Origin: Ruminococcus sp.
GTDB lineage: Bacteria; Bacillota; Clostridia; Oscillospirales; Ruminococcaceae
Length of the DNA stretch: 33,506 bases
Reading direction: 5' to 3'
Assembly (NCBI GenBank): GCA_021203985.1
Contig: JAJQAB010000119.1
Coordinates: 1-33,506 of the forward strand
The notes under the pieces are model-generated. The model ran no database searches. It saw nothing but the letters and a program-made list of their open reading frames with translations, and was not told the DNA's origin. The position numbers and the translations under genes were made by a program. Position 1 is the first letter of the stretch. The number at the start of each line of letters is the position of its first letter. Shown here piece by piece: positions 5,149-30,021 of the stretch.

Positions 5149-5194
5149 CCTCTCACCTCCTGCCGATGGTCTTTCGGCAACACCGCGAAAAGCG

Positions 5195-11779: not shown

Positions 11780-11853
11780 TCCACCGATTTCGTAAAAAAG
11801 TGCTTTTTCAAAGCGTCGGGAAGCATTACTTCCAAGAAAATTGAAAAAAGGGC

Positions 11854-11882
11854 TTTTCAACCATCGAAAAATGTTGTATAAT
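11854..11882 (+). promoter_or_regulatory. Promoter for zapA
   Basis: TTTTCA (11854-11859), 17 nt, TATAAT (11877-11882). Confidence 0.55.
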
Positions 11883-11884
11883 AA

Positions 11885-11941
11885 GGACATCTCTAAAAAA
11901 CTCGCCGCATATCTGCACGACAGGAGTTTTTTGAGATGCCC
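11885..11941. repeat. Hairpin repeat family 2, copy 1
   Basis: GACATCTCTAAAAAACTC ... GAGTTTTTTGAGATGCC inverted arms; CTGCACGACAGGAGTTTTTTGAGATGCC matches CTGTACGACAAGGGCTTTTCGAGATGCC in copy 2. Confidence 0.7.
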
Positions 11942-12009
11942 ATAAGAAAAACGGCAGCGGAAAAGCAGATTTTCCCGAAGCCGGAACAACCGGAAAGGAA
12001 TCTTCATTT

Positions 12010-12366
12010 ATGTCAAACAAAGTCAAAGTTGTGATCTGCGGCAAGGATTTTACGCTGCAAACCGCAGAATCCTCGAACTATGTGTTCGGACTGACGCGCA
12101 CATTAGAATCGCGCATCACAGAAATCACCGATGCCAGCAGCAGCGCATCGCCGTTTACCGCCGCGATCATGGTCGGTCTTTCGGCACTGGATGATCTGAG
12201 CAAGGCAAACGCAAGACTCGACAGTTTGCGTGATCAGTCGAAGGAATATGTGGACGAGGCAGGAAAAATGCGGCTGGAACGCGATGCGGCGCTCAAAGAA
12301 GCCGAAACGCTGCGTGCGAAACTTGCTGTCCTGGAACAGGAGCAAGGCGAAAAGCATACGAAATGA
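12010..12366 (+). CDS. zapA: Cell division protein ZapA
   Basis: MSNKVKVVICGKDFTLQTAES..., coiled-coil C-terminus; size and context typical of ZapA. Confidence 0.8.
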   Translation: MSNKVKVVICGKDFTLQTAESSNYVFGLTRTLESRITEITDASSSASPFTAAIMVGLSALDDLSKANARLDSLRDQSKEYVDEAGKMRLERDAALKEAETLRAKLAVLEQEQGEKHTK

Positions 12367-14507: not shown

Positions 14508-14871
14508 TCTATACGCATGCCTGGACGAGCCACTGACAATTACGCCGGAAGAGATTTGCAAAATCCCCACTGGAATTGCCGTTTCTCCGTCTCGGTCGGA
14601 TGTTGCCCTCTGTATCTTCCCACGTTCGGGACTCTCCGCCAAATACGGCATCACGCTGGCAAACGCTGTCGGTCTTGTGGACAGCGACTACCGCGGTGAA
14701 ATTCAAGTCGCGCTAATCCATCACGGATCTGTGCCATTTGTCGTAGAACCCGGGATGCGCATTGCACAGCTTGTCGTTTTCCCGATTCTTACGCCAGAGC
14801 TGCGCGAAGTGACAGCGCTCGATGAAACAGAGCGCGGCGCAGGGGGCTTTGGCTCAAGCGGACTTTCCTAA
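14431..14871 (+). CDS. dut: dUTP diphosphatase
   Basis: SAGYDLYA, PRSGLSAKYGITLANAVGLVDSDYRGEIQVALIHHG, RGAGGFGSSG motifs; RBS AGGAGG; ORF-track start 14326 trimmed. Confidence 0.92.
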   Translation: MYISIQRLRQNAKLPSQATKNSAGYDLYACLDEPLTITPEEICKIPTGIAVSPSRSDVALCIFPRSGLSAKYGITLANAVGLVDSDYRGEIQVALIHHGSVPFVVEPGMRIAQLVVFPILTPELREVTALDETERGAGGFGSSGLS

Positions 14872-14925
14872 GGCAACACCGCCGGCACCGCAAAGCCGGC
14901 AGATCCCAAATCCATAGAAAGGAGT

Positions 14926-15331: not shown

Positions 15332-15360
15332 TTGCCACGTTTCCAAAATCGTGGTATAAT
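15332..15360 (+). promoter_or_regulatory. Promoter for mreB
   Basis: TTGCCA (15332-15337), 17 nt, TATAAT (15355-15360). Confidence 0.65.
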
Positions 15361-15420: not shown

Positions 15421-15452
15421 TGCTCCTGCACACAAATCGACATGCGGGAGCA
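15421..15452 (+). promoter_or_regulatory. Leader hairpin upstream of mreB
   Basis: TGCTCCTGCA ... TGCGGGAGCA, complementary with one G-U pair. Confidence 0.5.
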
Positions 15453-15462
15453 TCCTCTATTC

Positions 15463-15545
15463 GGTATTTCGAAAAACTCCTGCCGTACGGATGTGCGATC
15501 GGCTAGACGCCGCATGCCTGTACGACAAGGGCTTTTCGAGATGCC
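15463..15545. repeat. Hairpin repeat family 2, copy 2
   Basis: 26-nt arms GGTATTTCGAAAAACTCCTGCCGTAC / GTACGACAAGGGCTTTTCGAGATGCC; all six non-Watson-Crick positions are transitions. Confidence 0.7.
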
Positions 15546-15581
15546 ACAGAATAACAACTATGCCCAGAAGGAGCACACGAC

Positions 15582-16598
15582 ATGTTTACAAAAGATATTG
15601 GCATTGATCTCGGGACAGCAAACACCCTTGTCTATCTGCGCGGCAGAGGGATTATTATACGAGAGCCATCGGTTGTTGCGGTGAACACCCATACCGACCG
15701 AGCAAAGTGTGTTGGAAAGGAAGCAAAGGAAGTCATTGGGCGTACACCCGGCTCGATTGTCGCGGTGCGCCCTTTGAAGGACGGTGTCATCGCCGACTTT
15801 GATACCACAACTATTTTATTACAGGAATTCATCCGCAAAGCCATGCGCGGCAAGATGTTCGCAAAGGCGCGCATCATTATCTGCATTCCCTCCGGCGTCA
15901 CCGCAGTAGAGTACCGTGCGGTACGGGATGCGGCGGATCACGCCGGTGCAAAGCCGGTGCTGATTGTCGAAGAGCCTATGGCGGCGGCGATTGGCGCTGG
16001 ACTTCCCACAACAGAACCGACCGGCTGTATGGTCGTGGATATCGGTGGCGGCACAAGCGAGGTCGCAGTTATTTCGCTCGGCGGCATTGTCTGCTCCAAA
16101 AGTATTCGATGCGCCGGTGATGAATTCGATGCAGCCATCATTAACTATATCAAAAAGCGATATAATCTGCTCATCGGTGAGCGAACTGCCGAAATCATCA
16201 AAATCCAGATTGGATCGGCATATCCGGTTGGCCGGGACGAGGTGATACAAATCAAGGGGCGCAATTTGATGAGCGGTCTCCCGGAAAATATGAACATCTC
16301 ATCCAAGGAAATTCGCAAAGCGCTGGCAGAGCCACTTTCATGGATTGTGGATGCGGTTCGCTATACGCTCGAGCAAACACCGCCGGAGCTTGCGGCGGAC
16401 ATCATTGATCACGGCATTACATTGACCGGCGGCGGTGCGCTTTTGCGCGGACTCGATCAGCTGATTCACAAGGAAACGGGTATGCCCGTCTATATCGCAG
16501 AATATCCGCTGGACTGTGTCGCGGAGGGTACCGGGAAAATTCTGGAAAACCTCGAAAAATACCGCGATGCGCTTTCGGATGAAGAGAAATTCATCTGA
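15582..16598 (+). CDS. mreB: Rod shape-determining protein MreB/Mbl
   Basis: [70 protein letters not shown]. Confidence 0.95.
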
Positions 16599-20306: not shown

Positions 20307-20334
20307 TTGACAAATCTCAAATTTGTGCTATAAT
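20307..20334 (+). promoter_or_regulatory. Promoter for mgsA
   Basis: TTGACA (20307-20312), 16 nt, TATAAT (20329-20334). Confidence 0.75.
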
Positions 20335-20438
20335 AAAAGTGAGACAATTTTTCGAAGAATCGGAGAGGTTTTCTCCTTAGACATACATTTTTATTCTATG
20401 ATAATGATACTGCAACGTAGAAAGGATTGATAATTCAC

Positions 20439-29874: not shown

Positions 29875-29903
29875 TTGACAAAGCCGTCAGGATCTGCTAT
29901 AAT
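29875..29903 (+). promoter_or_regulatory. Promoter for the thi operon
   Basis: TTGACA (29875-29880), 17 nt, TATAAT (29898-29903). Confidence 0.8.
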
Positions 29904-29908
29904 AAATA

Positions 29909-30021
29909 TAATACCGTACAAAGTACGTCTACGGTTTTTCACATCATCTGCTGGTATATTGCCTTTATTGTAAAGAAAAACCTAAGGCGCATTTGACGCT
30001 GGGTCTTGTGCGGTATTGCTT
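29909..30021. repeat. TIR repeat (MITE-like) family 1, copy B (internally deleted relative to copy A)
   Basis: AATACCGTACAAAG...CTACGGTTTTTCACATCATCTGCT...CCTTTAT.. AAGAAAAACCTAAGGCGCATTTG...CTTGTGCGGTATTGCTT; both ends align to copy A. Confidence 0.65.

Follow-up and report, generated by a model that had tools for sequence, protein, structure and literature searches.

The two long hairpins in the 5' leaders of zapA and mreB in this Ruminococcus genome are very probably short, decayed MITE-like insertions with ends like those of the IS5 family, placed downstream of promoters that already existed. The window (the whole stretch of DNA analyzed, 33,506 nucleotides) is contig C134 of a 140-contig draft assembly of 1.88 Mb that is 99% complete, and the gene order around the hairpins is zapA, U32 peptidase, dUTPase, mreB, mreC and PBP (Table 1). 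The first-pass annotation of this DNA had offered two readings, either a dispersed palindromic repeat or a cis-regulatory RNA shared by envelope genes. The first of these is borne out by six elements in both orientations next to unrelated genes, by relatives' leaders that are empty, by IS-type ends and by a target duplication at one copy; the second is not supported, as the hairpins are not conserved in congeners, their neighbors are not restricted to envelope genes, neither strand consistently folds better, and there is neither a terminator nor pairing with the ribosome-binding site (RBS).

Table 1. Positions of the elements, genes and promoters in the window.
Feature	Coordinates	Strand	Basis or remark
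zapA promoter TTTTCA-17-TATAAT	11854..11882	+	kept in congeners without the element
Left target-site duplication ATAA, copy 1	11881..11884	.	identical to 11942-11945; overlaps the -10 box at its end
Copy 1: complete 57-bp palindromic MITE-like element, zapA 5' leader	11885..11941	+	sequence, folding, end match
Right target-site duplication ATAA, copy 1	11942..11945	.	perfect 4-bp direct repeat with the left one
zapA (cell division protein ZapA)	12010..12366	+	Pfam PF05164, E 2.5e-13
mreB promoter TTGCCA-17-TATAAT; -10 at 15355-15360	15332..15360	+	similar promoter in G005
Copy 2: 85-bp palindromic element, mreB 5' leader	15462..15546	+	26-nt arms 15463-15488, 15520-15545
mreB	15582..16598	+	Pfam PF06723, E 3.9e-145

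Copy 1, in the zapA leader, had been described as lacking about 26 nt of its 5' arm; it is in fact a complete hairpin of its own, with a left arm at 11885-11903 and a right arm at 11924-11941, in which the 5' arm GGACATCTCTAAAAAACTC pairs with GAGTTTTTTGAGATGCCC. Its arms agree with the terminal consensus of the IS elements and MITEs described below at 15/18 and 16/18 positions, and its ATAA/ATAA flanks fit the 4-bp A/T duplication of related MITEs exactly. The earlier placement of this copy directly after the -10 box was correct, the element starting 2 nt past the TATAAT of a good promoter.

Copy 2, in the mreB leader, shares a right half of about 38 nt with copy 1, as had been noticed, and the consensus CGACARGRGYTTTTYGAGATGCC has three matches in the window against 0.00 expected (none in 100 shuffles). 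Its arms match the terminal consensus at 13/18 and 15/18 positions, and its flanks (TATT/CAGA, 1/4 identical) retain no clear target duplication. Recomputing the 26-nt arms of 15463-15545 again gave six differences, every one a transition, which had been taken to reflect tolerated G-U pairing. In the mRNA sense, 3/6 of these differences are G-U pairs and 3/6 are A-C mismatches, the latter becoming G-U in the opposite strand only; because the G-U pairs are thus split 3:3 between the strands, copy 2 gives no evidence of strand-specific RNA pairing, and the observation that all are transitions says little, since any transition in a palindrome makes a G-U pair on one of the two strands. Nor does copy 2 closely follow the mreB promoter, contrary to what had been proposed: the -10 box lies about 102 nt upstream of it.

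Further copies were sought across the genome by pattern and BLAST and then with a sequence-only model built from nine arms; this search, which the first-pass annotation had suggested as a check, brought the total to six elements, in both orientations. They lie in the leaders of zapA, mreB, polA, a WYL regulator and a flippase-like gene, with one more after phoU, so that the genes following the copies are not envelope genes only. Copy 3 (C80), in the opposite orientation, forms a hairpin 7 nt past a TATAAT, upstream of a gene for a WYL-domain regulator, and has flanks that are 3/4 identical (CCTA/CGTA). A partial element (C122) lies upstream of a polysaccharide-synthesis/flippase-like gene, and another (C118) lies in a putative polA leader, polA being named from a reading of the first codons of the gene alone. 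The sixth (C8) adjoins the phoU stop codon and spans 336 bp; a dispersed repeat of another family separates its two arms, and its flanks are 1/4 identical, without a perfect target duplication. Poor duplications such as those at copy 2 and at C8 would not be surprising in copies that are old and decayed. The model scores of 9/10 arm hits are not independent evidence, because those nine are the training sequences; the polA-leader element lies outside the training set (E 0.0013).

The repeat GGCAACACCGCAC...GTGCGGTGTTGCC belongs to another dispersed family, present in this genome and in relatives: in the window at 5157-5186 and 14853-14882 and elsewhere at L072 (~2143-2315) and L158 (~1340-1560). 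The palindromic elements of C8 and G152 each enclose a copy of it, which looks like a nested insertion. Promoter-like 35-nt stretches (TGCTATAATAAAAGTGA...) recur in the window at 106-140, 20326-20360 and 29895-29929 with 80% and 66% identity.

The ends of the elements point to their origin. The termini GGRCATCTCKAAAA agree with the terminal inverted repeats of an IS5-family insertion sequence and of 98-158-bp MITEs from other genera of the bacterial family; eight arms of the elements studied here agree with the 18-bp IS/MITE terminal consensus at 13-16 positions. A search of 149 genomes of the family with the IS terminal repeat GGGCATCTCTAAAAACCC, allowing up to 2 mismatches, found 44 places in 21 genomes, against 7 for a reversed-pattern control. 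One full IS (in G080, L133) is 1241 bp long with a TATA/TATA duplication, and its transposase belongs to the IS5 family (NF033581, 272.4 bits with a cut-off of 140, plus PF01609 and PF05598). The congener G008 carries a multi-copy IS bounded by a near-identical terminal repeat, with a left end that reads GAGCATCTCTAAAAACCCCC, then a promoter-like TATAAT, then an ORF beginning MKVRQRSFFDEENRMEKISKIGDPLEML. The copies of this IS5-type IS are collapsed at contig ends (L116-L119), and their left flanks are all A/T-rich (TTTA, TTAA, TTAT). The 98-158-bp MITEs of the other genera have perfect 4-bp A/T duplications (TATA, ATAT, TTAT, AATA), and an element in G152 is split by another repeat, as is the C8 copy here.

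The likeness to IS5-family IS (NCBIfam transpos_IS5_4, NF033581) and their MITEs thus includes the exact-end GGRCATCTCKAAAA, the inverted arms, the A/T target and, at copy 1, the 4-bp A/T duplication. In contrast, the elements studied here are 57-85 bp long and nearly all arm, carry no transposase gene (57 and 85 bp are too short for a transposase ORF) and have interiors unrelated to those of the relatives' MITEs; neither NF033581 (IS5_4) nor the G080 transposase found a match in this 140-contig draft assembly (G000). Homology of the interiors with those of the G050 and G152 MITEs was considered and dropped, at best 12/500 shuffles being as good, which is no significant similarity. Because the interiors do not match, what ties the elements to IS5 is their ~18-bp ends, their architecture and the 4-bp duplication. 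With the MITEs of 156-158 bp and 98 bp (G050, G152, G073) the elements share the terminal repeat and, at copy 1, a 4-bp A/T-only target duplication, and the G050 copy, like copy 3, lies 7 nt past a TATAAT; those MITEs are, however, longer and have a distinct interior. Six copies are few for a MITE, and this counts against our reading.

The element pattern had no match in 15 congeners, and the sequence model found no significant copy of this type in them; it gave only weak hits (E 0.05-0.3), four of which are identical ends of the multi-copy IS in G008. The zapA leaders of congeners keep the GAAAAATGT-TATAAT promoter and lack the hairpin, and the zapA orthologue in G005 provides an empty site (TATAATAAG): its sequence there is TATAATAAGTGATG, whereas in this genome TATAATAA is followed by the element and then by ATAAGAAAAACGG. 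The mreB leaders of congeners are likewise without the element, with flanks too diverged for a clean empty-site alignment. The exact pattern had no matches in viral contigs and plasmids; three matches in contigs of other genomes, from Geobacter and two Phycisphaerae MAGs, were taken as chance. Of the hits that copy 2 gave in relatives by BLAST, those inspected (L014-L017) were set aside as resembling, by eye, protein-coding sequence, and a hairpin in the G005 mreB leader was rejected as a homologue of copy 2, 155/300 shuffles being as good.

The zapA promoter with the GAAAAATGT spacer before TATAAT (window 11840-11885) is strongly kept throughout the genus, unlike the remainder of the leader. 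Upstream of copy 2, the mreB leader has a separate hairpin, GCTCCTGC...TGCGGGAGC (window 15421-15452, -16.0 kcal/mol), of which a similar one occurs in the G005 mreB leader (5/300 shuffles as good), a better match than that of copy 2; other congeners have hairpins at this position that are, by eye, unlike in sequence. Possibly there is a conserved, structured mreB leader.

A structured 5' UTR RNA that co-regulates envelope and division genes would account for the fact that 5/6 elements lie in likely 5' leaders, that three of them are strong hairpins and that copies 1 and 3 start 2 and 7 nt past a TATAAT, yet we regard it as very improbable: the orthologous leaders of congeners do without the element, the neighbors include polA, the WYL regulator, the flippase-like gene and phoU, copy 3 is oppositely oriented and the G-U pairs of copy 2 favor neither strand. 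Across copies 1-3, the mRNA strand is not always the one predicted to fold more stably, and copy 1, at -19.6 kcal/mol in the sense and -27.8 in the antisense direction, speaks against such an RNA; copy 2 is predicted to fold at -39.1 on the mRNA strand and -35.9 on the opposite strand, and copy 3 at -19.0 and -19.8, respectively. Rfam gave no match at the gathering threshold in the window, which also speaks against a shared leader RNA, and a known RNA family was rejected, the hits elsewhere in the region being at chance level; an intrinsic terminator or attenuator was rejected as well, no U-tailed GC-rich stem being present on the + strand at copy 1 or 2. A dispersed operator, with paired sites for a DNA-binding protein at the promoters of a species-specific regulon, would explain palindromic DNA at or just past the -10 boxes of several genes, but transposon ends are the better fit for arms of 18-26 bp, variable spacing (57 vs 85 bp, and 336 bp at C8) and decay, there is one perfect target duplication, and the same ends bound IS elements; we consider such an operator extremely improbable.

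That the MITE insertions were later co-opted, with the hairpin serving the stability or RNase III processing of the zapA and mreB mRNAs, would be an addition to the MITE explanation and not its replacement; we judge it to be rather unlikely. The hairpins are predicted to form an independent module of the leader: when the zapA and mreB leaders were folded with and without the element, the remaining predicted structure, including the RBS region, was essentially the same and no pairing of the RBS by the elements was predicted, while the mreB leader went from -27.7 kcal/mol without the element to -70.1 with it. Correia elements in Neisseria provide the precedent, a copy between the native promoter and mtrCDE being transcribed as a hairpin and leader copies, this one included, being bound or cleaved by RNase III (PMC2649163; reviewed in PMC10969869). 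Against co-option, conservation is absent beyond this genome and the sense-strand fold is under no consistent pressure. Correia/NEMIS elements (CREE) are similarly short mobile palindromes that often lie 5' of genes, but they have different ends, a TA target, lengths of 104-157 bp and many more copies, and the RNase III processing known for them is, for the elements described here, possible by analogy. REP/REPIN sequences are also short dispersed extragenic palindromes (PMC3116915; PMC2817692). REPs are, however, tied to tyrosine (RAYT) transposases and have a high copy number, unlike these few elements with terminal inverted repeats and a target duplication.

Under the MITE reading, the elements would have inserted downstream of zapA and mreB promoters already in place, probably mobilized in trans by an IS5 transposase that this assembly no longer shows; decay would have followed. 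A preference for A/T-only tetranucleotides would make -10 boxes likely targets and so put copies at or just past transcription starts, where they would be transcribed as an independent leader hairpin; effects on the mRNA are possible and might include RNase III cleavage or 5' stabilization, as with Correia elements. The simplest account of the leader bias would be insertion into A/T-rich -10 regions combined with purifying selection against other insertions. Of the 511 A/T-only 4-mer sites in the non-coding part of the window, 36 (7%) have a TATAAT no more than 12 nt away. By comparison, 2/4 elements with both ends in this genome (binomial P 0.027), 4/9 in a wider tabulated set (P 0.0023) and 4/12 when three more elements are added, none of them near a TATAAT by eye (P 0.0077), lie as close, proximities that are suggestive only, since the background is one window of one genome, few elements are counted and copies 1 and 3 had already been seen when the test was picked. 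Target choice may thus explain the leader bias (4/12 elements near TATAAT against ~7% expected). The stronger proposal is that the MITE transposase favors -10 boxes, so that its insertions would systematically provide core-gene mRNAs (those of zapA and the WYL regulator and, at a greater distance downstream, of mreB and polA) with a 5'-terminal hairpin while leaving the promoter intact; it seems quite doubtful to us.

The elements are thus of an ordinary kind, MITE-like palindromes, and their positional bias alone is mildly interesting. Recognizing them as such removes a false lead, that of a leader RNA shared by envelope genes. It also illustrates a way in which essential genes can acquire transcript hairpins from A/T-targeted MITEs. 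A preference for -10 boxes, if real, would give mobile DNA a simple route to rewire the 5' ends of mRNAs while leaving the promoters alive.
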